NCBI RefSeq assembly: GCF_016592155.1
Contig: NZ_AP024237.1
Span: 1,364,001-1,428,000 of the forward strand
Source of the DNA: Mycobacterium heckeshornense
GTDB taxonomy: Bacteria > Actinomycetota > Actinomycetes > Mycobacteriales > Mycobacteriaceae
Direction: 5' to 3'
DNA: 64,000 nucleotides
Below, one piece after another: positions 6,909-26,201 of the stretch (positions are counted from its first letter, which is position 1; each line of letters begins with the position of its first letter). Position numbers and translations under genes: made by a program. Below the pieces are notes generated by a model. It searched no databases. It worked only from the letters and a program-made list of their open reading frames with translations, and was not told where the DNA came from.

Positions 6909-7090
6909 TCTCTTAACCGGCTAATGGTTACTGGTTGTTGGCTACGACACGCCGTTTTTCCTGGGGTGCTTGATTTGCGTTGAGACGTTAGGCATATGTG
7001 AGTCCCATGGCAGCAGAGCAGACGGTCGAGTCGTTGTGTGCAGTCGAGCGGCAGGGGCGCTGGTCGCTGGTCGGGGCGGGCCGGCTGGCA

Positions 7091-8087
7091 TGGATCTGGT
7101 CAACGACTACCTGAGCTATCTGGCCGATCGCGCTTACTCGCCGCGCACGGTGCGCGCCTACGCGTTCGACCTGCTGGCGTTCGCGCGGTGGCTGGCCGCC
7201 GAGCGCCTTGGGGTCAACGAGGTCACCACGGAGGTGTTGCTGCGGTTCTTGGCGTTCTGCCGGTCGGCGTTGCCGCCGGTCCGGCCGGGCGGCAACGTGT
7301 ACTCGATCCGCGATGGCCGCAACGTCGGCTACGCGCCGACGACGATCAACCGGCGGCTCGCCGCGATCTCGGGGTTGTATTCCTATCGGCAGATGCGGGA
7401 TGGATCGGCGGACAACCCGGTACCGCGCGGGGGTCCGGCACGCCGCGCAGCCGGGGAGGCTAGCGGTCTGCTGGCTCACCTGCGAAAGCCAAAGCAGCGC
7501 TCGCGGTTACGGGTGCGGGAGCCTCGGCGGTTGCCGCGCGGCCTGGACCGCAAGGAGACGACGGCGCTGGTGGGCAGCCTGCGCACCGACCGGGATCGCG
7601 CGATCGCGGGGTTGATGCTGTTCTGCGGGTTGCGCTCGGCCGAGGTGCTGGGTCTTCGGGTCCGCGATATCGACATCGGCGGCTGGGTACGGGTCATCGG
7701 CAAGGGCGACAAGGAGCGCCGAGTTCCGTTGGATCCAGACGTGGCCGCGCTGATCCAGACCTACCTGTTCGCCGAGCGGCCCGAATCAGATTGCGACACA
7801 TTGTTTCTGGTCGCAAGGGCCCCAACCGGGGCGAGCCGCTGACCCCGGCTGGATTGCGCACGATCTTTCGCTACCACCGGGCGAAGGCCGGGGTGCCTGC
7901 CGGGCATCCGCATGCGCTGCGGCACTCGTTTGGCACCGCGCTGGCCGAGGCGGGAGTTGACCTATCGGTACTACAGGCGCTGATGGGCCACGACCACGTC
8001 GACTCCTCGGCCGCCTACATTCACCTGTCCCCGACGCATGTGCGTGCCGCCTACGATGCCGCCCGTGATCGCCAGCGCTCCCACTGA
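7091..8087 (+). pseudogene. TnpA-type tyrosine recombinase of element C, frameshifted
   Basis: A phage-integrase-family recombinase with SAM-like N-domain (DLVNDYLSYLADRAYSPRTV) and catalytic domain: Arg box CGLRSAEVLGL, Lys box GKGDKERRVPL, HALRHSFGT and LMGHDHVDSSAAYIHLS with the nucleophile Tyr. The frame breaks near 7811: the first frame runs through DTLFLV and then into nonsense, and the correct sequence KGPNRGEPLTPAG resumes in another frame. One base appears to be missing after the gtcgc at 7810. The N-terminus may start further up, at ATG 7006, with a second shift near 7080. It overlaps tnpB, as in Tn554-type operons. Confidence 0.8.
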
Positions 8088-9606
8088 GGGGGCTGTTGCC
8101 GCGCGGCGGCCAGCGCCGCGCGGCGAGGAGTTGCTGTCGGGGTATGTGGCCGCGTTGGCGGCCCGTGGTGCGGGGAATCGATCGTTACTGGCAACGGCCC
8201 GCGTGTTTCTGACCCGCTGGCCCGATCCACAGGCCTGGGCCGAGCTGCCGCTGTCGGTGCGGTTGTCGGCCGGTTGGACGGTTCGGCCGCTGTTGAATTA
8301 TCTGATGCTGTCCGGATATCTGCGCCCGGGCTACGACTATCTGCTCGAACGTAAGCTGGCTGCCATCCTACGGGAGGCACACACAAGCCCCTTGGCTGGT
8401 TATGTGACCCGATTCCTTTCCGCAGCAACCGAACTGGGCTACACACCCCGGGTAGCGGCGGGGCTGGCCAGCCAGGTCGCGGTGCGCATGCTGATCCAGA
8501 CCGGCCACCCGCTTACCGAGCTTGACGATACCGATATCGCCGAGTTCAGCGCCGCGATCACCGCCCGCGAACAAGCACATCAGCGGCCACTCCAGCACTA
8601 CCGGACCGCGTTGTATGCCGCCCGCGCTGTTCTGTATCACCTGGGTGGGCAGGTCACCCCAACTGCGAAAAACACCGCGCATCTGCGTTGGCCGTGGCGG
8701 CGTCACTTCGCCAGTGTTCCAACCGGATTGGCTGATTCGCTGGTCGCCTACCTGGAATGCGCCTCGGGCACTCGCACCCGATCGACCGTGTTGGGCATCG
8801 CTAGCCGCCTGGGCCATTTCGCCCAGTTCCTCGCCGACCACGATCCAGCGTTGATCAGCCTGGCCGACCTCGATCGGCAACGTCACATTGAGCCTTACTT
8901 AGCCGCCGTGGCCGCCGCGACCAACCCGCGCACCGGCGCGGTGTTGTCGGCCTCCGAACGGCGCTCGCGGGTGCTGACCGTCGGGCGGCTAATCGACGAC
9001 ATCAACGAATGGGGCTGGGCCGAGGCGCCCGGCCGCAAGCTCGTGTTTGCCCGCGATGTGCCCCGACTGCCCAGGGCGCTGCCCCGCTACCTGCCCCCGG
9101 ACGCCGATCGGCGGCTGTCGCAGGCGCTGCACGCCTCGCCGAACCGGCTGCGCGCCGACGCACTACTGCTGCTGCGCGCCACCGGGATGCGCATCGGCGA
9201 ACTGCTCGACTTGGAACTGGACTGTGTGCATGAGGTTCCCGGCGCCGGGGCCTGGTTGAAGGTTCCGCTGGGCAAGCTCGACACCGAGCGGATGGTGCCC
9301 ATCGACGACGAGACCCTCGAGTTGGTCGACCGCATCGTCGCGCACCGCTCGCCCGGCAAGCCACTGCCACACCCACGCACCGGCAAGCCGGTCCAGTTCC
9401 TGCTCACTCATCAGGGGCGCCGCATATCGGTGGACGTCCTGCGCAACGAACTTGCCCGCGCCGCCACCGAAGCAGGATTGAAATCCGTTACACCACACCA
9501 ACTTCGACACACCTACGCCACCGCGCTGATCAACTGCGGGGTGTCGCTGCAGGCGCTGATGGCGCTGCTCGGACATTATGCGGGTGATCTTGTCAAGTGC
9601 GTCTTG

Positions 9607-11433
9607 TCAGGAGGCGGTTTGATCGAGTCGGGCGAGCAGTCCGTCGAACACTTTCTGGCGGCCGAGCTGTCCTTTTTCGGCAGCGTCGTCGCGTTGTGCC
9701 TGCAGAGTGGGCCGGAAGGCGATGGTGGTCTGAAAGAAGGTGCAGGATTCGCAGATGGATTCGAAGTGGCAGTCCAGGCCGACGGGTCGGGCGCAGTAGC
9801 CGTTACCGAGCATCCGACGGTGCATCTCGGCGCGGAGCTTTCGCATTTCGGCGCCTTCGGCGTCGGCGGGAAGTGCGCGCGGCTGATCGTAGAGGGCCTC
9901 GACCTTTTCGCTGACGGTGAAGTATTCGTCGGCGACGGTGCGATCGGCGATTCGAGCGTAAACGAGCGTCATCCGCATAGATCGGTGACCCAACAGCGCG
10001 GCCAGCGCTTCCAGCGACATACCGCGGTTGATCGCCTGGGTTGCCAAGGTATGTCTGAGACGATGGGGCGAAACACGGCCGATGCCAGCCACTTTCGCGG
10101 TTTCAGCGACGGCCCGATCGACGCGGCCCTCCCCGATGCGTTGGCCGTACTCAACGAACAGGTAGCAGCTGCGCAGGCTGACGGGTCGGGCGGCGAGCCA
10201 TTCGTCGAGGAGATCCTTGAGTTGGGGATGCAACGGAATGTACCGGTCGTTGCGCAGTTTCCCGAGCGGCACGTGCAACCAGTACGCGGCCCCGATCTGC
10301 ACCACGGAATCGACTGTGAGATCGAGGAATTCGCCCTTACGCAGGCCGGTGCGGGCCAGGAACTCCACGCACAGCCGGACAAACGGGTCGTCGGCGGCGC
10401 GCGCGGCCTGCAGCAGCTTGGTGAACGCGGCGTCGTCGAGGAAGCGGGGCAGCGGCTCGTCGCGGATCGGCAGGTCGCCGGCGAACACGAGCACGCGGGC
10501 GGGAATATCGTCGCCGTCCCATTCGGTGAGCCGGTCGAAGCAGGTGCGCAGGGTGCCGAGATGTTCGGCGAGACTGATCTTGGACAACCGGCCGCCGCGC
10601 GCCGAAGGACGGGTGGCCAGGTGCAGCTTGTAGGCCTCGATGTGTGCCCGACGCAGGTCAGCAACACAGACCACCTCGGGGGCGTTCGCGGCCAGCCAGC
10701 CGGCGAACTCCCGCAGCACGCCCTCGACACGCACCATCGTCGAGGCCCGCAGCGACAGCCGCGTCTGGGCGATGTAACCGGTCAGGGTGGCCGCCAGCCG
10801 CGGCGGAACCGCCGCCCACTGGGCGGCCCGCTCAGCCGAGCGGTTTGGGCTGGTCTTGCGGGGCGCGCTGTCGAGGACGCCGAGGTGGAACAGGGTGGTC
10901 TGCGCACCGAACAGCGCCGCGCTCAGTGCTTTGGCGCCGTGGCTGCCGGGTCGGTGACGAGTTATCGCGGCACTCAACGCTTTTCGCTGCTCATCGATCA
11001 CCGGCTGGGTCAGCTGCTCGGGAGTCAGCCCGGCCAGCGCGGCCACCTTGGCCAGCGCCGACCACTGCAGGCGGGTCACGATGGGATCAAACCCGAGCTC
11101 GGTGGAGGTCGCGACGAACCGTTGGTGGAATCCGCGGTGATGATGGGCGGCGACTTCGCCGAGGTAGGGCCGGCACGCCACGAGATAGTCCGGGCTGGGC
11201 CGCAGCCGTCCCGTCACGATCAGCCAACCAACCACCCGTCGATCCTTCAGCGGCAAAGCGCACTGGGTTGCCAGCGGCAACGCAGACCAGCCCGCCACAC
11301 CCACGCGGGTGAAGAACGTGCGGGCCACCGAGGTCACCGGATGTCCGGCGAACATCCCGGCCGCAACCAGGTCGGCCCGATACGCCTCGACGAGCTCTTC
11401 GATGTCGGGGCGATGTGCTGGTGAGCGGTTCAT
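9607..11433 (-). CDS. TnpB-type tyrosine recombinase, element A copy 1
   Basis: A 608-residue recombinase. A long N-terminal region precedes the catalytic domain: Arg box LARTGLRKGEFLDL, Lys in HVPLGKLRNDRYIPL, SPHRLRHTLATQAINRG, then LLGHRSMRMTLVYARI with the Tyr nucleophile. A C-terminal Cys/His tail (YCARPVGLDCHFESICESC) follows, as in Tn554 TnpB. ATG 11433 overlaps the end of tnpA by 4 bp, so the two are coupled. One residue differs from copy 2: Cys in place of Arg in the SLRS(C/R)YLF segment. Unlike the tnpB genes it interrupts, this one is intact, so element A may be able to move. Confidence 0.9.
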   Translation of the reverse strand: MNRSPAHRPDIEELVEAYRADLVAAGMFAGHPVTSVARTFFTRVGVAGWSALPLATQCALPLKDRRVVGWLIVTGRLRPSPDYLVACRPYLGEVAAHHHRGFHQRFVATSTELGFDPIVTRLQWSALAKVAALAGLTPEQLTQPVIDEQRKALSAAITRHRPGSHGAKALSAALFGAQTTLFHLGVLDSAPRKTSPNRSAERAAQWAAVPPRLAATLTGYIAQTRLSLRASTMVRVEGVLREFAGWLAANAPEVVCVADLRRAHIEAYKLHLATRPSARGGRLSKISLAEHLGTLRTCFDRLTEWDGDDIPARVLVFAGDLPIRDEPLPRFLDDAAFTKLLQAARAADDPFVRLCVEFLARTGLRKGEFLDLTVDSVVQIGAAYWLHVPLGKLRNDRYIPLHPQLKDLLDEWLAARPVSLRSCYLFVEYGQRIGEGRVDRAVAETAKVAGIGRVSPHRLRHTLATQAINRGMSLEALAALLGHRSMRMTLVYARIADRTVADEYFTVSEKVEALYDQPRALPADAEGAEMRKLRAEMHRRMLGNGYCARPVGLDCHFESICESCTFFQTTIAFRPTLQAQRDDAAEKGQLGRQKVFDGLLARLDQTAS

Positions 11434-12476
11434 GCCTCGGCCGCCTCACCGGAGGCGACGACCTGCGCCTCGATCGCTTCGGCGGCCCGCAGGTACTCCC
11501 GTTCCAACCAGTCGTTGGCCAGGTGCAGGTAGATGCGGGTGGAGTCGATCGAGGCGTGGCCGGCCTGGGCTTGGATCGCCTCCAGTGCCATCCCCGCCTC
11601 CCGCAGCCGGGTGAAACAGGTGTGCCGCAGCTGATGGCACGTCGCCTGGGTCAGCCCGGCGCGAGCGCGCGCACCGTCGAGGATCTCGTCCAGACCGGCG
11701 GCCGACAACGGCTCGCCACGCCGGGGCCCCTTCAACACCACGAACACCCGATCGGTCGACGTCCGCGGCCGCTCCTGATCCAGATAGTCCCCCAGCGATG
11801 CGAAGAACCGCGCCGATACCGGCACCATCCGCTGCCGACCGCCCTTGCCTTCGGCCACGAACACCCGCCGCTCGCCGGCGTTGACGTCGTCGAGGCGCAG
11901 GCCCAGCACCTCGCAGCGTCGCAGTCCACCCAGCAGCATCGCCTCGACCATGGCCCGGTCGCGGTGGGTGCGCAGCGCCGCCCGCAGCGCGTCGACCTCG
12001 CTTGGCGCCAGCACCCGGGGCAGCGTGCGCGGGGTGCGGATCAACGCCATCCCGCCCTTCCCGCGCCGAGCACCGGGGCGGCGGGCGGCCAGGCTGGTCG
12101 GCACCGGGTTGCGGCTTACGCCGGTGTCACCGCGGGCCGCGAGGTAGGCATACAGGCCACGCACACTGGACAACCGGCGGGCGATCGTGCGCGCCGCCAG
12201 GCCCGGCTCGCCGTCCTCCAACCGCACCACCCGCTCACCCAAACGGGCAGTGCGTTGAAACGCCAAGAACGCGAACACATCTGCGGCGCTCACCTGGGTC
12301 GGTTCCTTGGCAACCACACCGAAGAAGATCTTCAAATCCGAGGCCACCGCCAGCCAAGTGTTCGTTCGGGCCCGTGCCGCAACGAAGGCCAGGTAGTCAT
12401 CCAGCAGCGGATGCCCCAGGGTGATCGCGGCCAACTCCGCCCCACGATGGTGACGGACCAGGCACGGCATGAACAC
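11430..12476 (-). CDS. TnpA-type tyrosine recombinase, element A copy 1
   Basis: Start taken at GTG 12476, preceded by a strong GCAGGAGG site; the open frame extends further upstream into the element end. The 348-residue product has a core-binding domain (DDYLAFVAARARTNTW) and the catalytic boxes GGLRRCEVLGLRLDD, EGKGGRQRMVPV, CHQLRHTCFTRLREAG and GHASIDSTRIYLHL (Tyr nucleophile). All R-K-H-R-H-Y positions are present, so it should be active. It is identical in translation to the copy 2 protein. Coupled to tnpB by a 4-bp overlap. Confidence 0.9.
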   Translation of the reverse strand: MFMPCLVRHHRGAELAAITLGHPLLDDYLAFVAARARTNTWLAVASDLKIFFGVVAKEPTQVSAADVFAFLAFQRTARLGERVVRLEDGEPGLAARTIARRLSSVRGLYAYLAARGDTGVSRNPVPTSLAARRPGARRGKGGMALIRTPRTLPRVLAPSEVDALRAALRTHRDRAMVEAMLLGGLRRCEVLGLRLDDVNAGERRVFVAEGKGGRQRMVPVSARFFASLGDYLDQERPRTSTDRVFVVLKGPRRGEPLSAAGLDEILDGARARAGLTQATCHQLRHTCFTRLREAGMALEAIQAQAGHASIDSTRIYLHLANDWLEREYLRAAEAIEAQVVASGEAAEA

Positions 12477-12985
12477 GGCAACCTCCTGCCGCCAGCATCC
12501 GCGCCCACCCCGCTGGATCACGGCAGACACGCCGAAGATCACCCGTATATCAAACACGTTTCTGCAGAAATGAGCCTGCGCTACGGGCGGCTCTTTGACG
12601 AAACCGTCCGCGCTGACTACGAACGCGCACTCATCCAGGCCAAGGCCCAACTCGGGCCCGTGCTGCCCGAGCGCACCCAGCTGCCCATCACCGACATCAG
12701 CAACGGCAGCAATGACTGGAAGGACACCCCCACGATCAAGGCGCGACTGGCCGGCGGATATTGCCTGCGCACCCCCGCCCAAGGAGCCTGCGCCTACGCC
12801 AACATCTGCGAGCACTGCCCGAACTTCCGCACCGAATCGACCTTCCTATCGATCCTGGCCACCCAACGCGCCGACGCCGCCGCACTGGCCGCCGACGCCG
12901 ACGCCCGCGGCTGGGGCGCCGAAGCCACTCGCCACCGCCGTTTGGTCGAACGCCTCGACCAGGTCATGAACCAAACGGACACGCC

Positions 12986-13288
12986 GTGACCGACGAACCC
13001 GCCGTTCGCGTTGAACGCGCCTGTCAGGCACTGCTGACTACCGGCGAGCCCATCACCTTCGACGCCGTGGCCGCCCACACCGGCATCGGCCGCGCCACCC
13101 TCTACCGGCGACCCGAACTGCGCGCCATCGTCGAACAACATCGCCAACACGGCCGCGAGGCACTCACTCTCACAGGACTACAAGTCCAAATCGACCAGCT
13201 CCGCCCCGCCCTAGAAGCCGTCGCTTCCAAGACACGCCGCCACGAAGAGCAACTCCGAAAACTCCACCGCTCCAACCGAGCCAAATAG
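12986..13288 (+). CDS. TnpC-like small transposition protein (DUF6262 type)
   Basis: A 100-residue protein beginning at GTG 12986, which overlaps the tnpB stop by 4 bp. It has an N-terminal helix-turn-helix-like segment (EPITFDAVAAHTGIGRATLYRRPELR) and a C-terminal coiled-coil rich in Arg and Lys (LEAVASKTRRHEEQLRKLH). This matches TnpC of Tn554-type elements in size, position and pattern; TnpC affects efficiency and orientation of insertion. It is intact although its partners tnpA and tnpB are broken. It is the only tnpC in the window. Confidence 0.8.
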   Translation: MTDEPAVRVERACQALLTTGEPITFDAVAAHTGIGRATLYRRPELRAIVEQHRQHGREALTLTGLQVQIDQLRPALEAVASKTRRHEEQLRKLHRSNRAK

Positions 13289-13340
13289 CCCACCACACCG
13301 CGACCACAAACCACGAGCGACCCGGATTGGCCGGATAACC

Positions 13341-13392
13341 GGAAGCCAAAGGGCTCATTGAGCGGGCTCACAATTACCTGGAGCGCTCGTTT
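13341..13392 (+). pseudogene. IS21-family istA, continuation beyond element C
   Basis: Encodes EAKGLIERAHNYLERSF, the IstA segment that directly follows RPADP in the family. This proves that element C sits inside istA. The frame ends shortly after ERSFT at a stop, so the rest of istA is deleted or frameshifted. I see no gene in 13393-13584. Confidence 0.8.
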
Positions 13393-13584
13393 ACGCGCCG
13401 TTGACATGGATTCAACTGGATGCGATGGCCACAAGGGTGAGTAGCGGGGGCGGCAGGCAGGCCGCCGATGCGATTGCCGGCCCGCCTGCGGCCGCTTGCT
13501 GACTGCTACTGGAGCCCCCGGTACTTTCTCTGCCGTGGGGGAGGACAGGGCTGCGGCGCTGCGCTTCATGAAGCCAACGCGTGT

Positions 13585-14829
13585 TTAGCTCGCGCGTCGG
13601 TCAAGCGGTTCGCCTTGCGGCCCCTGCCTGTCCGCGGCGGTGCCGAGGGTGACCAGCACGACGCGTGTGGCGTTTGCCCTGTCGACGCAGGTCAGCGTCA
13701 CGGTGTCGCCGGGGACCTTCGACAGGATTGCCGCAACCAAAGCGTCAGCACTCGTGATCGTCCGGTCATCGATCCGCGTAATCATCGCACCAGATGTCAA
13801 TCCGGCAACTGCGGCGGGGCTGCCGCTTTCTACATCAATAATCTTGGCGCCGTGGATGTCTCGGTCTTTTACCAACTGCACACCCAGGTAGGGATGCGAC
13901 GCCTTGCCTGTGGTGATCAACTCGGCCGCGACTCGCCTGGCCTGGTCGACCGGAATAGCGAACCCGAGGCCAATTGAACCGCCGGGCAAGATCAAGTTCC
14001 CGATCGTGGCGATCGCCGAATTCAGACCGATGAGTTCGCCGTTGCGGTTGATCAGCGCCCCGCCAAGGCTCCCCGGATTCATCGCGGCGTCGGTCTGGAT
14101 CGCGTCAAGCACGGTTTCGTTGCTTGTCGCATCGGACACGATGGGGACTGGGCGGTGCAGCGCGCTGACTATGCCGGTGGTGACGGTGTTTTCAAGGCCC
14201 AGCGGAGACCCCACTGAGACGACTTTCTGCCCGATCCGCACGTCAGCCGAAGAACCCAGAGTAATCGGCGTGAGTCCGGAAACACCCTCCGCCCGAACAA
14301 CGGCAACGTCACTGGCTGAATCAGCGCCAACCACAACAATCGGCGCGGTGCGGCCATCGGTGAAGACAGCTACTGGTTTTTGCGAAACACCGGCACCTTT
14401 GATGTCGCCGAAAGCCGACAGGACATGGCTGTTGGTCATGATTAGCCCGTCGGCAGACATGACGACACCCGATGCCGCTTGCGATAGCGCACCGGCCCGG
14501 GTCTCGAGTTTTACTACGCTGGGGGCGGCCTTAGCGGCAACCCGCTCCAGGGTGATGTCAGGCAGGTCGGTTACAGGCATGTTAGTTGATGCGCTACCGT
14601 CGGCGCGCTGGCTGCCGAACGGGTCAACGGCCAGCACAACGGTTGCCCCGATGACACCGGAGACCACTGCCACCGCCAATGCGCCGGCCAATAACTTCCA
14701 AGCGCGAAAAATGCCCTGGGGTAACACAGCTGTTGCACCTGGCTCCTCAGCACCCGGAGGGGGCACCACCGCTGTTCCGATCTCCGGATTTCCGGGTGCC
14801 CAGAACCGGTGTGGACGATCCTGGGTCAT
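13585..14829 (-). CDS. HtrA/PepD-like membrane serine protease homologue, catalytic Ser missing
   Basis: A 414-residue protein: short cytosolic N-terminus, one membrane helix (about residues 45-70), an extracytoplasmic trypsin-like domain and a C-terminal PDZ domain (HPYLGVQLVKDRD... GLTSGAMITRIDD). The catalytic His (TNSHVLSAFG) and Asp (ADSASDVAVVRAE) are present. The serine motif, normally NPGNSGG, reads NPGSLGG (codons agc ctt), so the nucleophile position is Leu. It may be a chaperone-like or regulatory pseudoprotease. A Shine-Dalgarno (GAAGGAG) supports ATG 14829. It is divergent from devR with 329 bp between the starts. The mycobacterial relatives are PepD (Rv0983) and PepA. Confidence 0.88.
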   Translation of the reverse strand: MTQDRPHRFWAPGNPEIGTAVVPPPGAEEPGATAVLPQGIFRAWKLLAGALAVAVVSGVIGATVVLAVDPFGSQRADGSASTNMPVTDLPDITLERVAAKAAPSVVKLETRAGALSQAASGVVMSADGLIMTNSHVLSAFGDIKGAGVSQKPVAVFTDGRTAPIVVVGADSASDVAVVRAEGVSGLTPITLGSSADVRIGQKVVSVGSPLGLENTVTTGIVSALHRPVPIVSDATSNETVLDAIQTDAAMNPGSLGGALINRNGELIGLNSAIATIGNLILPGGSIGLGFAIPVDQARRVAAELITTGKASHPYLGVQLVKDRDIHGAKIIDVESGSPAAVAGLTSGAMITRIDDRTITSADALVAAILSKVPGDTVTLTCVDRANATRVVLVTLGTAADRQGPQGEPLDRRAS

Positions 14830-14996
14830 AGTGCTCCTTCACTCGGTCGGTATTGAACATCGGTTGGCTATCCCCCTCGATCTTGAACGCGCCAGGGCGG
14901 GTGGTATTAGAGGCCGAAGTCCCATTCCTGCACCCGCCGAAATGCCTGCATGCGTGGTCCGGTGGCCTGAGTACATTAGGGTCGATCGCGACCAAA

Positions 14997-15016
14997 TTAA
15001 GGACTAACGACCCTGA
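14997..15016 (+). promoter_or_regulatory. Candidate DosR box upstream of devR
   Basis: TTAAGGACTAACGACCCTGA matches 14 of 20 positions of the DosR consensus (TTSGGGACTWWAGTCCCSAA). It ends 142 bp before the devR start, consistent with autoregulation as known for DosR. A weaker half-matching site (AGTCCC) lies near 14918. Confidence 0.6.
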
Positions 15017-15158
15017 CGAGGACGACCTGCGTCTCATATCCTTCGCCAGGATGACCGGCCGACTATTACAACTGTGAATCGCCCGTGGTTACGGGCATGA
15101 TGGAGGTTTACCAGTCAGTCGCCGGCGTGAACGGTAATCGCTTTATGAAAGGGTCGCC

Positions 15159-15806
15159 GTGGTGAAGGTCTTTCTGGTCGACGACCATGAGGTGGTCCGT
15201 CGCGGCATCGTTGACCTGCTCGAATCCGACCCTGAGCTCGAAGTCGTCGGCGAAGCCGGCTCGGTCGCCGAGGCGATGGCGCGGATACCGGCGGCGCGCC
15301 CGGACGTCGCGGTGCTCGACGTCCGGTTGCCGGACGGCAACGGGATCGAGCTCTGCCGTGATCTACTCTCGGATCTACCCGACCTGCGCTGTCTGATGTT
15401 GACTTCGTTCACATCCGATGAGGCGATGCTTGATGCGATTTTGGCTGGGGCCAGCGGGTACGTCGTTAAAGATATCAAGGGCATGGAGTTGGCGCAGGCC
15501 ATCAAAGACGTTGGTGCCGGCAAATCGCTGCTAGACAACCGCGCTGCTGCGGCGTTGATGGCGAAACTGCGCGGCGGCGCTGAACGAACCGATCCGCTGC
15601 TCGGGCTCACCGACCAGGAGCGGACGCTGCTCGGGCTGCTCAGTGAAGGGCTGACGAATAAGCAGATCGCTGCCAGGATGTTCCTCGCCGAAAAGACTGT
15701 GAAGAACTATGTGTCACGATTGCTGGCCAAGCTGGGAATGGAGCGGCGCACCCAGGCGGCAGTCTTCGCCTCCAAGCTGAGCGGCGGTAACCACCCGCCC
15801 CATTAG
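15159..15806 (+). CDS. devR: Response regulator DevR (DosR)
   Basis: A 215-residue NarL/FixJ-type regulator very close to mycobacterial DosR. The receiver domain has Asp8, Asp9, phospho-acceptor Asp54 (VLDVRLPDG), Thr82 and Lys104. The C-terminal LuxR helix-turn-helix contains the DNA-contacting Lys179, Lys182 and Asn183 ([14 protein letters not shown]). Thr198 is conserved, but the position matching Thr205 of M. tuberculosis DosR is Ser. It activates dormancy genes in hypoxia or NO. Start at GTG 15159 gives [11 protein letters not shown] as in DosR. It is followed by devS after 36 bp. Unlike in M. tuberculosis, no USP gene sits directly upstream in the same operon. Confidence 0.96.
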
Positions 15807-17555
<1,749 letters not shown>

Positions 17556-18465
17556 CTACTCAGTACGGTGCGTGCCGGGTTGGCGTGCCACAATCACCGG
17601 CATCCGTGCCGACTGGGCCACTGTTTCAGCGACTGACCCGACCATCATTTCGGCGAATCGACCACGGCCTCGGCTACCGAGGACGAACAGCTGGGCCTCC
17701 TCAGAGCGCTCGACGAGTTGGCGTGCCGGCTTATCGCACACGGCAATTCGGTGCACATCAACATCTGGGTACTGTTCTTGCCAGCCCGCCAGTCGCTCAG
17801 CGAGTAATTTCTTGGTTCATCGACTGTGTCGCAGGCCAATCCACGCCGGGCGCTTCCGATACATCGGCATCGCTCCATGCGTGCAGAGCAACCAGCTGCA
17901 CCTTTCGGCGCGAAGCCTTATCGAATGCGATTGCGGTCGATAGTTCGGACGCTGGGGAGCCGTCGATGCCCACTAGTACCGGCGCCTGCGCTGGGTAGGG
18001 CATCAACGGATCCTCATCGTGGATGATCGCGACCGGACAATGTGCGTGACGGATCAGCCCCATAGCAACCGAACCGGGGTGGCGGCCAAACCACCGCCCA
18101 CTGCCGTGACATCCCACGGTCACAAGTTCCGCCTCTTTGGAAAAGTCGACCAACGTGGGAATGGCAGCTGACGACAGGAGTTCGGTGCGGACTTCGGCAG
18201 GGCCTCCGCGATCGCACGCTTGTGCCACCGTCTTCAGCGCGTCGTCGAGGAGTCGGCGTCCGTGATCTGCTTGCCAGCGCGCCAAACCGGGAGGTAACGG
18301 CGTATCCAGCCATGTTGTCGAAATAGTCGGCGAAATCGCGTGTACGAGCGTGAGCGAGACATTCCGCAGTTCCGCATCACGTGCGGCCCAATCGAGCGCG
18401 ACCCTGGTAGCAGGTAAATCGTCAACCCCCACCAGGATTCCTAAATCCCGATTTCTTAGTGCCAT
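17556..18465 (-). pseudogene. Two-domain universal stress protein, frameshifted
   Basis: Start at ATG 18465 with a near-perfect AAAGGAGGAG site. The first domain (LGILVGVDDLPATRVALDWAA) and start of the second ([20 protein letters not shown]) read well to MNQE near 17815. There the frame ends; the rest ([33 protein letters not shown]) continues in another frame to a stop at 17556. A single small indel explains it. Either a true pseudogene or a sequence error in an A-rich run. It converges on devS with no gap. Confidence 0.85.
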
Positions 18466-18575
18466 GACTCCTCCTTTGAAATGGTGAGCCATTCCACCAA
18501 GCGGTCGCCCACTACGGGAAAGTATGGACTGCAGCCGTGTCGGGTTCAGGGTCGTTCGTCACCCGTCGAATAGCC

Positions 18576-18595
18576 ATAGGGCCCAAGTTTCCGCT
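18576..18595. promoter_or_regulatory. Weak candidate DosR box between USP and acg
   Basis: Core GGGCCCAAGTTTCC matches 9 of 14 core positions of the DosR box. It lies in the divergent region between the USP start (18465) and acg (18716). Weak on sequence alone, but both neighbours are of types known to be DosR targets. Confidence 0.3.
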
Positions 18596-18715
18596 GCATG
18601 GGGTACTGGCGCAAACAGGAAGTCCCATGCAAGTGGAGTCTTTGGGCTCTATCCGCTGTGTGTGTCCCGTGCGAGCCTGAACTGGAAACATTGTTTGCAG
18701 AAAGCGCTGACCGCC

Positions 18716-19696
18716 ATGAACATCCGATTTCCCGACCGGGAGACCGTTCGAACCGCCTTGTCACTGGCTACTCGTGCACCTTCGGTGCACAACACGCAGC
18801 CTTGGCGGTGGCGGGTGGGTAGAGAAAGCTTGCACTTGTACGCTGACCGGACACGGCATCTTCCTAATACCGACCCGGACGGCCGTGATTTGATTCTAAG
18901 CTGCGGAATCATCCTGCATCATTGTGTGACCGCGTTGGCGGCGCTGGGATGGCAATCGAAGGTACAGCGGTTACCGAATCCCGACGACCGGGAACACCTT
19001 GCGGCCATAGAGCTTCACCGCCAGTCTCCCAGTGAAGTTGACATCACACTCGCGGCGGCGATCCCGCGGCGGCGCACCGATCGACGCCACTACAGCTCGT
19101 GGGAAGTGCCAGCTAATTATATCGCTCTCATGGGTGCGCGCGCGGCTCGCGCCGGCGTGATGCTACGCCGAATCGAAGCCCTACCACGGTTACAAACTAT
19201 TGTGGCACAAGCTGTTTGGCAGCATGCAACTGACCACGATTATTTGGCTGAGTTGACCAAATGGAGCGGCAGGTATGCGTCGGTTGCCGGTGTACCAGCG
19301 CGCAGCACGCCACAATCGGACCCAACTGCGCCGTTACCTCCGCGGCTATTCGCGGGTCCCGCGTTGGCGCAGCCGGCTGATACCGATCCCGCCGAAGATA
19401 ACGCTGCGGTGCTCGCACTCGGCACCAAAGACGACACCACGCTGGCACGCCTGCGGGCCGGCGAAGCCACTAGCTTAATCTTGCTGAGCGCGACCGCGCT
19501 TGGGTTGGCTAGCTGTCCCGTCACCGAACCGTTGGAGATTGTCGAAACACGCGATGCTGTGCAGGTCGAGGTTTTTGGGACAAGCGGGTTTCCGCAGATG
19601 CTGCTACGGGTCGGGTGGGCACCGGTCAACGCTGACCTCTTGCCGGTGACTCCACGCCGCCCATTAGCGGACGTCGTGGAGTGGTTCGACGGGTGA
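18716..19696 (+). CDS. acg: Acg-family nitroreductase-like protein
   Basis: A 326-residue protein of the Acg/Rv2032-Rv3131 family, which is a fused, diverged nitroreductase fold that binds FMN but lacks a known substrate; members are DosR-induced. Visible landmarks are SLATRAPSVHNTQPWRW near the start, RRRTDRRHY in the middle, and TALGLASCPVTEPLE and MLLRVGWAP near the end. ATG 18716 is chosen over upstream in-frame starts because the family sequence begins there. It is divergent from a broken USP gene. Confidence 0.88.
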   Translation: MNIRFPDRETVRTALSLATRAPSVHNTQPWRWRVGRESLHLYADRTRHLPNTDPDGRDLILSCGIILHHCVTALAALGWQSKVQRLPNPDDREHLAAIELHRQSPSEVDITLAAAIPRRRTDRRHYSSWEVPANYIALMGARAARAGVMLRRIEALPRLQTIVAQAVWQHATDHDYLAELTKWSGRYASVAGVPARSTPQSDPTAPLPPRLFAGPALAQPADTDPAEDNAAVLALGTKDDTTLARLRAGEATSLILLSATALGLASCPVTEPLEIVETRDAVQVEVFGTSGFPQMLLRVGWAPVNADLLPVTPRRPLADVVEWFDG

Positions 19697-19859
19697 GCAT
19701 TCGACTTCATCAAGCGCAAACGCTGCTATCAGCGAATGACAAGCACTGAGTACTCGGCGTGGCCGAGGATCGGGTGGCCGGTGCGGGCCGACCAACTGGA
19801 CGACCTGATCGACATCGGACCTGCCGATCACAGCGAGCTGCAGCCGGTCGCTTACCGCG

Positions 19860-20085
19860 GCTGTGGATGCGAGCGCGCGCCGCATCGAATTCCGTCTTCA
19901 CCCGAACCGGAGCAAGATGCACCGAGGTGTCGACATGCTCGTGACCGAGCAACGGCTGCATCACCGGCAGATCCACCCCGTCTCGGCCATCGCAGTGCCA
20001 AACGTATGCCGTAACGCATGTGCCACATCAACATCTAACGGCACCCGCCGCTGCCCGGAGCTAACCCGCGCGGAATAGCCGTGAT
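19860..20085 (-). pseudogene. Remnant of a TnpA-type tyrosine recombinase
   Basis: Fragments in two frames: RRVPLDVDVAHALRYG, then MDLPVMQPLLGHEHVDTSVHLAPVRVKTEFDAARAR. They match the Lys box and the LMGH...Tyr region of element C TnpA, with the segment between deleted and the Tyr region altered (VHLAP for YIHLS). It is a degraded relic of another Tn554-like element. Confidence 0.65.
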
Positions 20086-20134
20086 GATTGCAAAACGCCT
20101 CCATGCGCGGTGTCCCGATGCGGCCAGCTTGCGC

Positions 20135-20570
20135 CGAGGTCGGGTGGCCCGTACATGTCGGCGAAGTGGCGGCGACCTCACCAGTGGTCCTTTGCGGTCA
20201 ACGACAATACGATTTCATCGATACCCCTCAGCCGACGCTAGCGCTCCTTGACGATCTGCCGATCAAAGCCGCTATTGGTATCCCGAGGTACCTCGATCTC
20301 CACCGGCCCGATCTCGCTGAGCACCGTCTTGGCCCGGGTGCCATTGCGGGAATTGCCGCTGCCACGCCCAGCCGGGTCATCCTCGTCATAACCCAGATGC
20401 TCGGTCATCTCCGCATCCAGCGCGGTCTCGAGCACGTTCTTGGTCAACTGGTTAAGCAGCTCGTTGGGGTCGACCAGCTCGACGCCCTGTTCCTTCGCTT
20501 GCGCCAGCAGCCGCTCCGCCAGCTGCCATCGATCCGCCTCGATAGCGACGGGATCGAGTGTTTCTGACAT
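20135..20570 (-). pseudogene. IS256-family transposase, N-terminal remnant
   Basis: Starts MSETLDPVAIEADRWQLAER and follows the IS256/mutator N-terminus (LLNQLTKNVLETALDAEM, HLGYDEDDPAGRGSGNSRNG, EIEVPRDTNSGFDRQIVKE). A TAG stop replaces the Gln expected after IVKER; the match continues as RRLRGIDEIVLSLTAK and is then lost near 20135. The catalytic domain is absent. Confidence 0.75.
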
Positions 20571-21065
20571 CCTCAGTCCGTCCCGCCAACCACAGCTCGG
20601 CGTGTCAGACCAAGACCAGATCCACCGTTGTCCAGACAGTCCCTCAGCGTAGTACCGAGCGACGCTGCGGGCGTACCAGATGCGCCAACAACCCAGTCCG
20701 TTCACCCGCCGTTGCCGAGTGCGCTTCCCGGCCTTTGGGCAACAACCACTGGTCTAGCGGGATGCATAATGTCCTCGAGTTCGAATAGTCATCAGTTCGA
20801 AGTGACGTAGCTAGCAATCAATAGCGCTGCAGTGTAGCGCAGTGCCTGCGTGTCGCCGTCACCGATACGAGATTTGTCGCACGCCGAAGATCGTATTTGC
20901 GGTGCGCCGAGACGTTGCCCGAGATCGCGGTTGTAATTCCACGACAACATCAAAAGCTTGTATCGACTCAGATGTGGCGATTCATTGGTATCCTGCCATG
21001 CGATCTCAATCCAAACGGTGTGAGAACTGCTGAGCTAAAAAGCTTTCGGTGCCCACAACTCAGAG
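20571..21065. other. No gene recognised (about 495 bp)
   Basis: Short open frames only, none with family resemblance or a good ribosome site. The left part may hold the terminal repeat of the decayed IS256 copy. AT content is higher than in neighbouring genes. Confidence 0.5.
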
Positions 21066-21233
21066 TCAGCTCTGAAGATTGCAAATCAACAGCGTGCAAC
21101 CGGCATGACCGAGCGTTGAGCGAGACGCGGGGCTGAAGATAGCGCCGAGCGTGCGAGAATCTCGGGGGCCCACCACGAGCAACTGGACAGGGCTTGCATT
21201 GCTGTGCAGATAATCAAGCATGCTGCCTGGGTG
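21066..21233 (-). pseudogene. C-terminal end of a USP gene cut by IS3 copy 1
   Basis: Encodes HPGSMLDYLHSNASPVQLLV, VGPRDSRTLGAIFSP and GHAGCTLLIC before a stop at 21066. It aligns with the C-terminus of the intact USP at 34311 (LEFLARNATPIQLVVVDPRQ). It continues the N-terminal part at 28507-29203: the reading EEH | HPGSML is interrupted exactly by the IS3 element with a CAC (GTG on + strand) target duplication. Confidence 0.85.
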
Positions 21234-21263
21234 TGAATCGCCCTGGGTTTTGTGCACACCGGT

Positions 21264-21369
21264 TTACTTTGCGCCGGTCGGCTGACCGGTGTGGTGTGCA
21301 TGGTAGTCGGCCTCGTATTCGATGGGTGGTTTCAGTCCGAGTCGGTGCATGAGCCGGCTGGTGTTGTAC
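21264..21369 (-). pseudogene. IS3 copy 1 orfB, 3' end
   Basis: Carries the end of the IS3 transposase after the WVHWY position: NTSRLMHRLGLKPPIEYEAD and a short tail. It is identical to 35253-35353 in copy 2. It is separated from the rest of orfB (27293 onward) by element B. Confidence 0.85.
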
Positions 21370-21399
21370 TTATGCGGGTGATCGAGTCAAGTAGGGCGG

Positions 21400-21777
21400 T
21401 CACGAGGCGGTGGTATCGAGGCGGTCGAGGATGCCGTCGAAGATCTTCTGGCGGCCGAGTTGGCCCTTGTTGGCGGCATCGTCGCGCTGGCGTTGCAGCG
21501 TGGGCCGGAACTCGAGGGTGGTAACGAAGAAGCTGCAGGATTCGCAGATGGACTCGAAGTGGCAGTCCATCTCGACCGGTCGTGCGCAGTAGCCGTTGCC
21601 CAGCATGCGGCGGTGCATCTCGTTACGCAGTTTGCGCATTTCGCGGCCTTCGTCGTCGCCGGCGAGTTGATGGGGTTGGCCGTAGAGTAGTTCCACTTTC
21701 TCGGTGACGGCGAAGTACTCCTCGGCGACGGTCTTATCAGCAATTCGTGCGTAAACCATTGTCATGGCTAAGGTTTT
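21400..21777 (-). pseudogene. TnpB of element B, C-terminal part
   Basis: Resumes after element A with KTLAMTMVYARIADKTVAEE, giving the Tyr nucleophile of the recombinase, and runs through the Cys-rich tail YCARPVEMDCHFESICESC to the stop at 21400. Together with 24761-26201 it restores a TnpB of about 606 residues, closely similar to element A TnpB. Confidence 0.87.
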
Positions 21778-21858
21778 GTGTTTGATATACGGGTGATCTT
21801 CGGCGTGTCTGCCGTGATCCAGCGGGGTGGGCGCGGATGCTGGCGGCAGGAGGTTGCC

Positions 21859-22905
21859 GTGTTCATGCCGTGCCTGGTCCGTCACCATCGTGGGGCGGAG
21901 TTGGCCGCGATCACCCTGGGGCATCCGCTGCTGGATGACTACCTGGCCTTCGTTGCGGCACGGGCCCGAACGAACACTTGGCTGGCGGTGGCCTCGGATT
22001 TGAAGATCTTCTTCGGTGTGGTTGCCAAGGAACCGACCCAGGTGAGCGCCGCAGATGTGTTCGCGTTCTTGGCGTTTCAACGCACTGCCCGTTTGGGTGA
22101 GCGGGTGGTGCGGTTGGAGGACGGCGAGCCGGGCCTGGCGGCGCGCACGATCGCCCGCCGGTTGTCCAGTGTGCGTGGCCTGTATGCCTACCTCGCGGCC
22201 CGCGGTGACACCGGCGTAAGCCGCAACCCGGTGCCGACCAGCCTGGCCGCCCGCCGCCCCGGTGCTCGGCGCGGGAAGGGCGGGATGGCGTTGATCCGCA
22301 CCCCGCGCACGCTGCCCCGGGTGCTGGCGCCAAGCGAGGTCGACGCGCTGCGGGCGGCGCTGCGCACCCACCGCGACCGGGCCATGGTCGAGGCGATGCT
22401 GCTGGGTGGACTGCGACGCTGCGAGGTGCTGGGCCTGCGCCTCGACGACGTCAACGCCGGCGAGCGGCGGGTGTTCGTGGCCGAAGGCAAGGGCGGTCGG
22501 CAGCGGATGGTGCCGGTATCGGCGCGGTTCTTCGCATCGCTGGGGGACTATCTGGATCAGGAGCGGCCGCGGACGTCGACCGATCGGGTGTTCGTGGTGT
22601 TGAAGGGGCCCCGGCGTGGCGAGCCGTTGTCGGCCGCCGGTCTGGACGAGATCCTCGACGGTGCGCGCGCTCGCGCCGGGCTGACCCAGGCGACGTGCCA
22701 TCAGCTGCGGCACACCTGTTTCACCCGGCTGCGGGAGGCGGGGATGGCACTGGAGGCGATCCAAGCCCAGGCCGGCCACGCCTCGATCGACTCCACCCGC
22801 ATCTACCTGCACCTGGCCAACGACTGGTTGGAACGGGAGTACCTGCGGGCCGCCGAAGCGATCGAGGCGCAGGTCGTCGCCTCCGGTGAGGCGGCCGAGG
22901 CATGA
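21859..22905 (+). CDS. TnpA-type tyrosine recombinase, element A copy 2
   Basis: Same protein as at 11430-12476. The GTG at 21859 follows GCAGGAGG by 5 bp. The longer open frame to GTG 21778 begins in the element end and is less likely. 348 residues with the complete catalytic set (LRRCEVLGL, GKGGRQRMVP, HQLRHTCF, GHASIDSTRIY). Stop and tnpB start overlap by 4 bp. Confidence 0.9.
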   Translation: MFMPCLVRHHRGAELAAITLGHPLLDDYLAFVAARARTNTWLAVASDLKIFFGVVAKEPTQVSAADVFAFLAFQRTARLGERVVRLEDGEPGLAARTIARRLSSVRGLYAYLAARGDTGVSRNPVPTSLAARRPGARRGKGGMALIRTPRTLPRVLAPSEVDALRAALRTHRDRAMVEAMLLGGLRRCEVLGLRLDDVNAGERRVFVAEGKGGRQRMVPVSARFFASLGDYLDQERPRTSTDRVFVVLKGPRRGEPLSAAGLDEILDGARARAGLTQATCHQLRHTCFTRLREAGMALEAIQAQAGHASIDSTRIYLHLANDWLEREYLRAAEAIEAQVVASGEAAEA

Positions 22906-24728
22906 ACCGCTCACCAGCACATCGCCCCGACATCGAAGAGCTCGTCGAGGCGTATCGGGCCGACCTGGTTGCGGCCGGGATGTTCGCCGGACATCCGGTG
23001 ACCTCGGTGGCCCGCACGTTCTTCACCCGCGTGGGTGTGGCGGGCTGGTCTGCGTTGCCGCTGGCAACCCAGTGCGCTTTGCCGCTGAAGGATCGACGGG
23101 TGGTTGGTTGGCTGATCGTGACGGGACGGCTGCGGCCCAGCCCGGACTATCTCGTGGCGTGCCGGCCCTACCTCGGCGAAGTCGCCGCCCATCATCACCG
23201 CGGATTCCACCAACGGTTCGTCGCGACCTCCACCGAGCTCGGGTTTGATCCCATCGTGACCCGCCTGCAGTGGTCGGCGCTGGCCAAGGTGGCCGCGCTG
23301 GCCGGGCTGACTCCCGAGCAGCTGACCCAGCCGGTGATCGATGAGCAGCGAAAAGCGTTGAGTGCCGCGATAACTCGTCACCGACCCGGCAGCCACGGCG
23401 CCAAAGCACTGAGCGCGGCGCTGTTCGGTGCGCAGACCACCCTGTTCCACCTCGGCGTCCTCGACAGCGCGCCCCGCAAGACCAGCCCAAACCGCTCGGC
23501 TGAGCGGGCCGCCCAGTGGGCGGCGGTTCCGCCGCGGCTGGCGGCCACCCTGACCGGTTACATCGCCCAGACGCGGCTGTCGCTGCGGGCCTCGACGATG
23601 GTGCGTGTCGAGGGCGTGCTGCGGGAGTTCGCCGGCTGGCTGGCCGCGAACGCCCCCGAGGTGGTCTGTGTTGCTGACCTGCGTCGGGCACACATCGAGG
23701 CCTACAAGCTGCACCTGGCCACCCGTCCTTCGGCGCGCGGCGGCCGGTTGTCCAAGATCAGTCTCGCCGAACATCTCGGCACCCTGCGCACCTGCTTCGA
23801 CCGGCTCACCGAATGGGACGGCGACGATATTCCCGCCCGCGTGCTCGTGTTCGCCGGCGACCTGCCGATCCGCGACGAGCCGCTGCCCCGCTTCCTCGAC
23901 GACGCCGCGTTCACCAAGCTGCTGCAGGCCGCGCGCGCCGCCGACGACCCGTTTGTCCGGCTGTGCGTGGAGTTCCTGGCCCGCACCGGCCTGCGTAAGG
24001 GCGAATTCCTCGATCTCACAGTCGATTCCGTGGTGCAGATCGGGGCCGCGTACTGGTTGCACGTGCCGCTCGGGAAACTGCGCAACGACCGGTACATTCC
24101 GTTGCATCCCCAACTCAAGGATCTCCTCGACGAATGGCTCGCCGCCCGACCCGTCAGCCTGCGCAGCCGCTACCTGTTCGTTGAGTACGGCCAACGCATC
24201 GGGGAGGGCCGCGTCGATCGGGCCGTCGCTGAAACCGCGAAAGTGGCTGGCATCGGCCGTGTTTCGCCCCATCGTCTCAGACATACCTTGGCAACCCAGG
24301 CGATCAACCGCGGTATGTCGCTGGAAGCGCTGGCCGCGCTGTTGGGTCACCGATCTATGCGGATGACGCTCGTTTACGCTCGAATCGCCGATCGCACCGT
24401 CGCCGACGAATACTTCACCGTCAGCGAAAAGGTCGAGGCCCTCTACGATCAGCCGCGCGCACTTCCCGCCGACGCCGAAGGCGCCGAAATGCGAAAGCTC
24501 CGCGCCGAGATGCACCGTCGGATGCTGGGTAACGGCTACTGCGCCCGACCCGTCGGCCTGGACTGCCACTTCGAATCCATCTGCGAATCCTGCACCTTCT
24601 TTCAGACCACCATCGCCTTCCGGCCCACTCTGCAGGCACAACGCGACGACGCTGCCGAAAAAGGACAGCTCGGCCGCCAGAAAGTGTTCGACGGACTGCT
24701 CGCCCGACTCGATCAAACCGCCTCCTGA
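22902..24728 (+). CDS. TnpB-type tyrosine recombinase, element A copy 2
   Basis: 608 residues, identical to the copy 1 protein except Arg for Cys in SLRSRYLFVEYG. Arg is also the more natural residue there: in the element B protein the equivalent stretch is GLRTNHLLIEH. Catalytic boxes and the Cys-rich tail are as in copy 1. The stop at 24728 lies about 30 bp inside the element end. Confidence 0.9.
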   Translation: MNRSPAHRPDIEELVEAYRADLVAAGMFAGHPVTSVARTFFTRVGVAGWSALPLATQCALPLKDRRVVGWLIVTGRLRPSPDYLVACRPYLGEVAAHHHRGFHQRFVATSTELGFDPIVTRLQWSALAKVAALAGLTPEQLTQPVIDEQRKALSAAITRHRPGSHGAKALSAALFGAQTTLFHLGVLDSAPRKTSPNRSAERAAQWAAVPPRLAATLTGYIAQTRLSLRASTMVRVEGVLREFAGWLAANAPEVVCVADLRRAHIEAYKLHLATRPSARGGRLSKISLAEHLGTLRTCFDRLTEWDGDDIPARVLVFAGDLPIRDEPLPRFLDDAAFTKLLQAARAADDPFVRLCVEFLARTGLRKGEFLDLTVDSVVQIGAAYWLHVPLGKLRNDRYIPLHPQLKDLLDEWLAARPVSLRSRYLFVEYGQRIGEGRVDRAVAETAKVAGIGRVSPHRLRHTLATQAINRGMSLEALAALLGHRSMRMTLVYARIADRTVADEYFTVSEKVEALYDQPRALPADAEGAEMRKLRAEMHRRMLGNGYCARPVGLDCHFESICESCTFFQTTIAFRPTLQAQRDDAAEKGQLGRQKVFDGLLARLDQTAS

Positions 24729-24760
24729 CAAGACGCACTTGACAAGATCACCCGCATAAT

Positions 24761-26201
24761 GTCCGAGCAGCGCTGCGATCGCATCCAGGCTCATGCCCCG
24801 ATTCACCGCCTGGGTGGCTAGCGTGTGTCGCAGTTGATGCGCGGTGACGTTGCCGATGCCGGCCGCGCCCGCGACGCGGCGCAACGCCGAAGTGACGCGG
24901 TGATGGCTAATCGGCCGTCTGTGTTCGATCAGAAGGTGATTGGTGCGCAACCCATTGGGTCTATGGTTGGCGATCCAGTCATCAAGGAGTTCTTTGAGCT
25001 GTGGGTGCAGCGGGATGTAGCGGTCGTTGTGCAACTTGCCGATCGGGATGCGCAGCCAGTAGGCGGATCCGATCTGCACGACGGCGTCGACGGTGAGGGC
25101 CAGCAGCTCGCTGCGGCGTATCCCGGTGCGGGCAAGCAATTCAACGATCAGCCGAGACAGCGGATCGGCCTCGCTGCGGGTAGCGCGCAGCAACTTGGCT
25201 GCTGCGGCGTCGTCGAGGAACCGCGGCAGCGGCTTGTCGATGATGGGCAGGTCGCCGGGGAACATCAGTGCCCTGGTCGGCGCGTCCGGGTAGCCCCACT
25301 CGGCGATCCGGGTGAGAAAGCAGTGCAGGTTGATCAGCGTGTTCTTGATGCTGACCCGGTTGAGCGGCTTGCCGGTGGATGGCCTGGCGTGCGTGCACAG
25401 CCACGCCTTGAATGCCTCGATGTGTTCGCGCCGGAGATCAGCGCAGCCGGTGACGTCGGGGTGGGTGTCGGCCAGCCAGATTCCGAATCGGCGCAGGTCC
25501 AGGTCTATGTGTCGGACGGTGCTCGGTCGCAGACTCAGCGCGACTTGTGCGAGGTATCGCTGCGCGGTCTCGACGAACTTTATTGGCGCCGTGTCCCATC
25601 CGGTGTCCGAGGATTGGTGTTGCACCGCCGGTGGGCGCAGCGTAGAAATCTGGCCGGCGTGGAAGAGCGTCAGCCGCAAGCGGTGAAAAACCGCGGCCAC
25701 GTTCTTGCCCGCGGTGGGCTTGCCGCGGCGGGCATACGCGGTGAGCATCGCCACACGGGCGGCGTCGAAATGCTCGTCGGTGATCGCGCGCGGTGACACA
25801 CCGGTGATGGCAGTAACCTTCGCCAGGATGTTCCACTGCGCCGCGGTGTCCCTGGCCGAAACGCCGATGCGAGAACAGGCTTCGTTGAACCAGTGGTAAT
25901 CGGCGGGGCAAAACGACCGTGCCGGCAGGCCCGGCCGCAGGTCGGTGCGGCTGAGCAGCTCGGCGTCCACAGTGATGCGGCCAGTGACCATCAGCCAGGA
26001 CGTGAACGAACGCGCCTTGACCACAACGTCGAGCCGCTGCTCGGCGGTGAGCCCATCCCATCCGCCAGCCCGCCGGATCTTGCCCTCGCAGGTGTATGCC
26101 GATCGGGTCGTTGACCGGCCCGTCTTGTGCCCTGAGGCCCGCATCGCGGCCAGATAGTCCTCGACGAGCCAGGAGTCGTCTACCACCACCGACGCGGGCA
26201 T
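24761..26201 (-). pseudogene. TnpB of element B, N-terminal part
   Basis: Begins MPASVVVDDSWLVEDYLAAM at ATG 26201, which overlaps the tnpA stop (TGATG). It runs through the N-domain, the Arg box LARTGIRRSELLAL, RIPIGKLHNDRYIPL and TAHQLRHTLATQAVNRG to AIAALLGH, where element A enters. Without the C-terminal part it lacks the Tyr nucleophile and cannot act. An open frame continues to 22911 only by reading the antisense of element A. Confidence 0.88.

Follow-up and report, generated by a model that had tools for sequence, protein, structure and literature searches.

Two copies of a transposon, here called element A, lie in a 64,000-bp stretch of the Mycobacterium heckeshornense genome (NZ_AP024237.1, positions 1,364,001 to 1,428,000; hereafter the window). 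Each interrupts the long tyrosine recombinase gene, tnpB, of another transposon at the codons of a conserved active-site box, copy 1 in element C and copy 2 in element B. Judging from the junctions, A is probably a Tn554-related transposon that integrates site-specifically at the box His codon of recombinase genes belonging to mobile elements, a harbour that is itself mobile. The original prediction had already placed both copies at a Leu-Leu-Gly-His (LLGH) box in tnpB of C and B, which junctions and flanks confirm; of the limits that it gave for the locus (9562..24773), the location holds and each end is off by about 15 bases.

Element A spans about 2.97 kb and carries tnpA and tnpB between 15-bp inverted ends with one mismatch. 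Its two window copies are 99.9% identical and mutually inverted; copy 1 starts at TAT (9577) and finishes with CCCGTATA (12549). In both copies the left junction reads GGACAT/TATGCGGGTGATC (slash, junction) and the right junction CCCGTATA/TCAAACAC, after which host C continues with GTTTCT and host B with AAAACC. The two junctions have just 2-3 bases in common, CA(Y), and so show no target duplication, as in Tn554-related transposons. On the tnpB side, the host pieces in the window have a Phage_integrase match that reaches profile position 156 of 172, and they stop at LLGH; the pieces past A carry VSAEMSLRY (C) and KTLAMTMVY (B). The LLGH box can be aligned with its counterpart in Xer-type recombinases of solved structure, and its His is a catalytic residue located shortly upstream of the Tyr in the tyrosine recombinase family. 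The His codons on either side of A are 2981 bases apart, which is not a multiple of 3. Since A parts the catalytic Tyr from the remainder of the host recombinase, the protein should be dead. Uninterrupted C-type genes in other genomes represent the empty site and mostly read CTCGGNCAY directly followed by GTCTCG or similar; judged against them, insertion deleted no bases.

The source genome (G000), a single contig of 4.96 Mb, contains nine copies of A. All nine have GGNCAT/TATGCGG, which goes beyond chance, and all nine lie inside a C-type (five copies) or B-type (four copies) tnpB. Hosts were typed from the scores and frame lengths of the 57 PF00589 matches in the genome, together with the fetched loci. 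No C or B without A was recognised among these 57 matches. Because all nine hosts are C-type, B-type or their chimeras, the genome provides just two independent host genes. C-type left ends occur at four different flanks (the window, L001 = L005, L006 and L003).

The orientation of A is identical at all tyrosine recombinase sites read. On the tnpA side, TCAAAC is invariant in A, locus L064 has other bases, and deeper relatives are variable. The possibility that this 6-bp piece records the previous site found no support, the piece being constant in A. As the junctions show, the attachment site consists of the codons ending in the His of an [L/V/A][G/D]H box in recombinase genes of other mobile elements. 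They also show the ends TATRCGGGTGATC joined to the box without base deletion, with a short invariant stretch (TCAAAC in A) retained next to tnpA and the sequence of the target itself retained next to tnpB. TnpA and TnpB would carry this out by strand-exchange steps presumed to follow those of Tn554 and related elements. The benefit would likely be a landing place, not damage: the box should be present in nearly every tyrosine recombinase, and the genes concerned would be mostly dispensable, multicopy and borne on plasmids or transposons.

Insertions in other genomes

Among the matches listed, A copies longer than 2.8 kb occur in six of 396 genomes of the genus (G000, G251, G083, G186, G045 and G048), and a few further ones hold broken or partial copies. 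A DNA search for A gave matches in 214 of these 396 genomes at E<=0.001, most of those listed being about 30-150 bp long and chance-like. TnpB searches of family and order samples revealed no further A-like copy at E<=1e-120; their matches fell in 2 of 401 and 4 of 397 genomes, own included, the others being 49-68% identical. Viral contigs gave three distant matches (24-31% identical). Relatives of A are found on Rhodococcus plasmids and in assembled genomes, and a scan of genome contigs provided 80 of 131 loci.

Twenty-six distinct loci were counted, of which 20 are at a Gly-His (GH) box, one is in an unrelated gene and five were unread (L051, L065, L067, L069 and L074). The 20 comprise 18 tyrosine recombinases, four of them read by eye on one side, and two ISL3 transposases. 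The flanks therefore uphold the earlier expectation of repeated insertion at LLGH-type codons in unrelated loci, and do not place most copies in unrelated sequences. The position of the box stands as the target, and the exact LLGH does not, as the box codons also encode LMGH, MLGH, LLDH, ILDH, QVGH and QAGH. Nor are relatives' tnpB genes the only targets, as had been claimed: other tyrosine recombinases, ISL3 DDE transposases and one hydrolase gene are hit as well, and the hosts are widely different, including TnpB-type, LLDH/ILDH and QVGH/QAGH types.

When 16 tnpB-side flank pieces (two from the window, fourteen from elsewhere) were compared with Pfam in the frame that ends in GH or DH, which we chose, 14 matched Phage_integrase and all 14 stopped at profile position 156 of 172 (window C, window B, L037, L039, L041, L042, L052, L057, L060, L062, L064, L068, L070 and L072). 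The host at L077 matches DDE_Tnp_ISL3, one flank up to position 104 and the other from position 107 of 240; L076 has the same ISL3 box by eye, and its short piece has no Pfam match. L012, L071, L073 and L119 have one readable side each, resembling by eye the post-box part of a tyrosine recombinase, with no Pfam match and a best PHROGs E value of 0.1. L051 was dropped as a tyrosine recombinase for want of a convincing family match and counted as unread. L070 and L071, found in two assemblies, may be one kind of insertion. Left outside the 26 were repeats of the same host type (seven in G000, and in Mycobacterium sp. SM1 those at L038 and L063), two internal fragments (L049 and L050), and L108, L113 and L114, partial copies whose length did not suffice for the tree. 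By eye, an extra small open frame lies between tnpB and the element end in some LGH-clade relatives (L012, L069 and L119; L065 and L070), coding for a protein of about 100 amino acids or a Cys-rich one at the position of tnpC in C.

It is highly improbable that a single insertion reached its second gene by homologous recombination or gene conversion. Chimeras do exist: L003 consists of a C-type left half, A and a B-type right half, and the B copy at L005 has C-type sequence immediately before A. As these units are joined inside or just before A, they show A copies acting as recombination points between unlike transposons, and recombination inside A does take place, as a secondary process. In the window, however, each copy has the same host gene on either side, and the other hosts are different genes. 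SM1 holds seven A copies in five host genes (L064 and L068 look related), and the one at L038 shares 99.8-99.9% identity with each of the other six. Identity between G000 and SM1 is 97.5% for B and 92.9% for the A within it; against G045 the values are 81% for B and 90% for A. Since the divergences of host B and inner A differ, the A insertions are not one event copied by recombination, which refutes this route as the main cause and counts against the refuter named in the original prediction, that copy 2 arose from copy 1 in this way; B::A arose separately in different genomes. Within the source genome, the nine A copies differ in just eight columns, and the signal of these conflicts too much to separate movement of C::A units from separate entries.

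Target choice in related clades

We built a TnpB tree of 80 rows by a quick method, entering identical proteins (e.g. L071 and L072) once; target labels were our own, mostly by eye, and 32 rows remained unlabelled. L042, L043, L051, L057 and L119 were too partial for the tree and were assigned to their clade by similarity to A. Target class follows the tree, with 7 changes for six classes among labelled rows; with unlabelled rows as a seventh class there are 15 changes against a shuffled mean of 44.0, a value as low being reached in 0 of 200 shuffles. The LGH clade has 19 rows (support 98), namely 12 with tyrosine recombinase targets, 2 with ISL3 and 5 unlabelled, L070 having been read later. 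All ten members of the IS3 OrfB W/YN class fall in one clade (support 100), as do 11 of 12 in an IS21 IstA clade (support 86; an extra IstA row, L104, lies elsewhere on a long branch) and 12 of 13 in an IS3 OrfA clade (support 99). Pfam assigned pieces from sister clades to rve (L090; weakly L081), rve_2/3 (weakly L088), HTH_Tnp_1 (L053; below cut-off for L046 and L097) and Mu-transpos_C_2 (L044 right and L079; L044 left was uninformative).

For the relatives of C, 32 distinct flanks could be read and five more were too short; eight were dropped as backward tnpA-side ends or one-mismatch internal matches (none of the eight has the Glu). A Glu codon (GAA/GAG) is codon 8 of the right flank in 23 of 24 cases, for a chance expectation of about 2.7% per position; the exception is L170, and in L153 a stop codon interrupts the motif. 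The boxes take the forms PxxxGxVE, PWxNGYVE and xxDNAxxE, and four of five left pieces match rve, ending at 100-101 of 102. C-type relatives insert 7 codons before this Glu codon, which by eye is that of the third catalytic residue of DDE transposases. The window's own C sits, by eye, in an IS21-type istA-like gene just upstream of a PEAKGLIE motif, its left istA-like piece having no Pfam match, and like L001 and L006 it has the Glu-codon motif on its right. L003 lacks its own right half; in the window, the other IS3 copy has an intact stretch that reads, by eye, PVAKCTVE at this place, with Glu at codon 8, yet this is not the catalytic Glu.

Because related clades use other boxes, target choice looks lineage-specific and probably resides in TnpB. 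A and B have the same end sequences and TnpA proteins that are 68% identical, but their TnpB proteins are 44% identical over residues 10-483 (75% beyond), suggesting that TnpB is what reads the box. It is possible, though we put it somewhat short of even, that these elements form a guild of transposon-hunting transposons, in which each Tn554-related clade reads, via its long recombinase, one active-site box of one class of recombinase or transposase and switches boxes in evolution, and in which the A subclade has recoded its own box and so escapes itself. The boxes of such a guild, on the same tentative footing, would be the tyrosine recombinase His together with ISL3 LGH, the DDE Glu motif, IS3 W-Y-N and OrfA, and the IS21 Asp region.

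Competing explanations

Several observations weigh against site-specific choice of this box. Five of the 26 loci are unreadable, and for another four a single side was judged by eye; at L042 the tnpA-side (right) junction is rearranged, and the decayed copy L043 lies in a CocE/NonD-like hydrolase gene (TIGR00976, E 7e-10, below the model cut-off; no Pfam match). Of the 91 occurrences of CTNCTCGGNCAY in the genome, 8 carry A (the ninth A copy has ATGCTCGG) and one more is in a PF00589 match; the remaining 82 fall outside such matches and are all without A. In weight matrices tested by leaving each target out in turn, a 16-bp matrix gave one site per 305 kb for L041 and L052 and one per 25-68 kb for C, B and L038, and one per about 1-4 kb for L039, L060, L064, L068 and L043, down to one per 0.3 kb for the ISL3 site of L077. 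A 48-bp matrix, which includes protein homology, ranked tyrosine recombinases at 30 kb or rarer and placed L077 and L043 in the background. A short motif is therefore insufficient for the fidelity observed. The outgroup of 19 rows, as far as its pieces were tried, lacks such a pattern. Ten pieces were compared, eight of them from this outgroup and two from L116, which falls outside it. Five gave no match and three matched ordinary domains (PDH_N, Sigma70_r2 and DUF6228); another matched an IS110 transposase, which starts 80 residues away from the junction, and one (L116) weakly matched rve.

A further possibility is survivorship, that is, genome-wide insertion at a short degenerate motif with only insertions in dispensable mobile genes persisting. 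The DNA core GGNCAY does recur, at the hydrolase-gene site included, and insertions in mobile genes are plausibly neutral. However, insertions at hypothetical, prophage and intergenic sites would survive too, whereas GH boxes of recombinases or transposases account for 20 of the 21 sites that could be read. Even LLDH, ILDH and LMGH boxes, which deviate from the DNA motif, are hit at the same codon, and related outgroup elements persist beside ordinary genes. We therefore consider survivorship unlikely. Equally doubtful is the idea behind the original prediction, that A evolved to disarm related transposons through loss of their Tyr, perhaps as a satellite. The effect itself stands, as all insertions read in tyrosine recombinase genes lie before the Tyr. 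In favour of the idea, A is without the tnpC that is present in C, and the five C and four B copies recognised in the genome all carry A. Moreover, the A-subclade copies that were read (6 of 6) use TTG for the Leu of their own LLGH box, as if A spared itself, whereas uninterrupted C-type genes use CTC there in 23 of 25 rows, a few of which are near-duplicates. CTC is also found in 10 of 10 more distant relatives and, against this idea, in the own boxes of the LGH-clade relatives L012 and L052, so the recoding is suggestive of self-avoidance in one lineage only. The rest speaks against such a strategy: A encodes both recombinases, ISL3 transposases are hit though they are no same-ended rivals, and C::A and B::A are present at several flanks, which means that the hit elements multiply or are multiplied in trans. 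Insertion of A did not end the spread of C and B, since all recognised copies carry A at several places. That the recombinase genes serve A as a harbour is thus more likely than that A is a weapon, because the A-carrying C and B occupy several places and ISL3 transposases are hit also.

Nested elements in the window and known relatives

Both nests are detailed in Table 1. The second comprises three levels, since A is in B and B is in OrfB of an IS3-family element, at W/YN; the unit at 21233-28510 recurs at three more places in the genome. In A and B about 30 bp separate tnpB from the element end, and no tnpC is seen. The closest NCBIfam models for the A recombinases are of XerC/XerD type, with scores under the model cut-offs. 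In the window, a frameshift divides the tnpA of C (6970-8087) in two; a 361-amino-acid frame is retained in the C-type copies at 2754642, 2953242 and 3957960.

Table 1. Features of the two nests in the window. The open frame of A tnpA extends past the element edge, hence its 366-plus amino acids (aa).
Feature	Position	Strand	Remarks
Element A, copy 1	9577..12549	genes on -	terminal inverted repeats TATGCGGGTGATCTT/TATACGGGTGATCTT; inside element C tnpB
Element A, copy 2	~21786..24758	genes on +	inside element B tnpB
A tnpB, copy 1, 608 aa tyrosine recombinase	9607..11433	-	Pfam Phage_integrase 4.6e-26; PDB relatives XerA/XerD
A tnpA, copy 1, tyrosine recombinase, 366-plus aa	11430..12530	-	Pfam Phage_integrase
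Left junction	9562..9576	+	ALLGH codons of C tnpB, last codon CAT
Right junction TCAAACAC	12550..12557	+	constant tnpA-side bases, then His codon continuing into host
Element C (tnpA, tnpB, tnpC) carrying A	6913..13338	+	ends TTAACCGGCTAAT / ATTGGCCGGATAA
C tnpB, part before A (copy 1 host)	8038..9576	+	
C tnpB, part after A with Tyr (VSAEMSLRY)	12555..12989	+	
C tnpC (DUF6262)	13004..13288	+	Pfam PF19776 2.7e-07
Element B (tnpA, tnpB, no tnpC seen) carrying A	21371..27287	-	end sequence same as that of A
B tnpB, part before A (copy 2 host)	24759..26267	-	
B tnpB, part after A with Tyr (KTLAMTMVY)	21403..21783	-	
B tnpA, start codon unassigned	26201..27287	-	Pfam
IS3-family element carrying B carrying A	21234..28506	-	rve domain

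A 3-bp GTG repeat flanks the IS3::B::A unit in the window (21234, 28506), and none was seen by eye at the other three. In a second copy of the same IS3-family element (35223-38343), OrfB contains a group II intron (reverse transcriptase/maturase, 35462-37132; domain V, 35354-35454) that interrupts its W-Y-(N) codons, within a few bases of the position of B in the other copy. An Rfam search of 5000-40000 at gathering score found nothing in A, its only match being the group II intron at 35354-35454. Between the nests, 15143-19719 holds genes resembling those for a response regulator, a GAF-type sensor kinase, a universal stress protein and a nitroreductase, a set that resembles a dormancy regulon.

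Homing introns and group II introns, too, occupy conserved codons of transposase genes; they are removed by splicing, which leaves the host product intact. Like them, as in the example in the window, A has a highly conserved gene part as its target; unlike them, nothing suggests that A splices out. Terminal inverted repeat (TIR) hunters such as IS4321/IS5075 home on the terminal repeats of other mobile elements. They and the Tn5053-type elements use terminal repeats or res sites and DDE enzymes; unlike A, neither is known to target catalytic-motif codons. Tn554 has radC as its unique site. The Tn5053-type 'res-site hunters' are described as homing on a feature of other mobile elements (PMC7765201).

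Tn554-related transposons of actinobacteria have been known since Van Houdt et al. 2012 (PMC3414803); what appears new is the choice of an active-site box as target. As in that family, a short and a long tyrosine recombinase are adjacent, with or without TnpC, and several identical copies may share a genome, in hosts that include Mycobacterium, Rhodococcus, Streptomyces and others (PMC3414803). TnpC-less elements are listed within the family (PMC3414803); from gene content and hosts, we assign A and B to the TnpC-less type and C to the TnpC type. The accessible part of that paper gives Tn554 itself a unique site and, unlike the present analysis, leaves the target sites of its relatives unanalysed, stating only that several similar attB sites are possible (PMC3414803). 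A 6-bp footprint is left behind when Tn554 moves (PMC10214605). Strand-biased circularizing integrative elements and GInts likewise have paired tyrosine recombinases and few chosen sites, and a 6-bp footprint moves with them; unlike A, they have other gene sets, and the accessible part of their description reports no preference for recombinase active-site codons (PMC10214605). RIT elements are also tyrosine recombinase transposons, and some lie inside a Tn6049-related transposase gene; unlike A, they have three recombinases, and no codon box is described in the part of the source available (PMC3414803). Literature searched by titles and abstract openings, with subscription journals mostly outside, yielded no account of this target choice.

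For the little-studied Tn554-related transposons of actinobacteria, these insertions suggest a rule for where they land, and they point to transposons that have the enzyme core of other transposons as landing ground. Elements that insert into such boxes would be both a brake on mobile DNA and its passengers. Because one clade reads one box with ends nearly unchanged, the family may also serve as a natural comparison series for locating the part of a tyrosine recombinase that picks the target.

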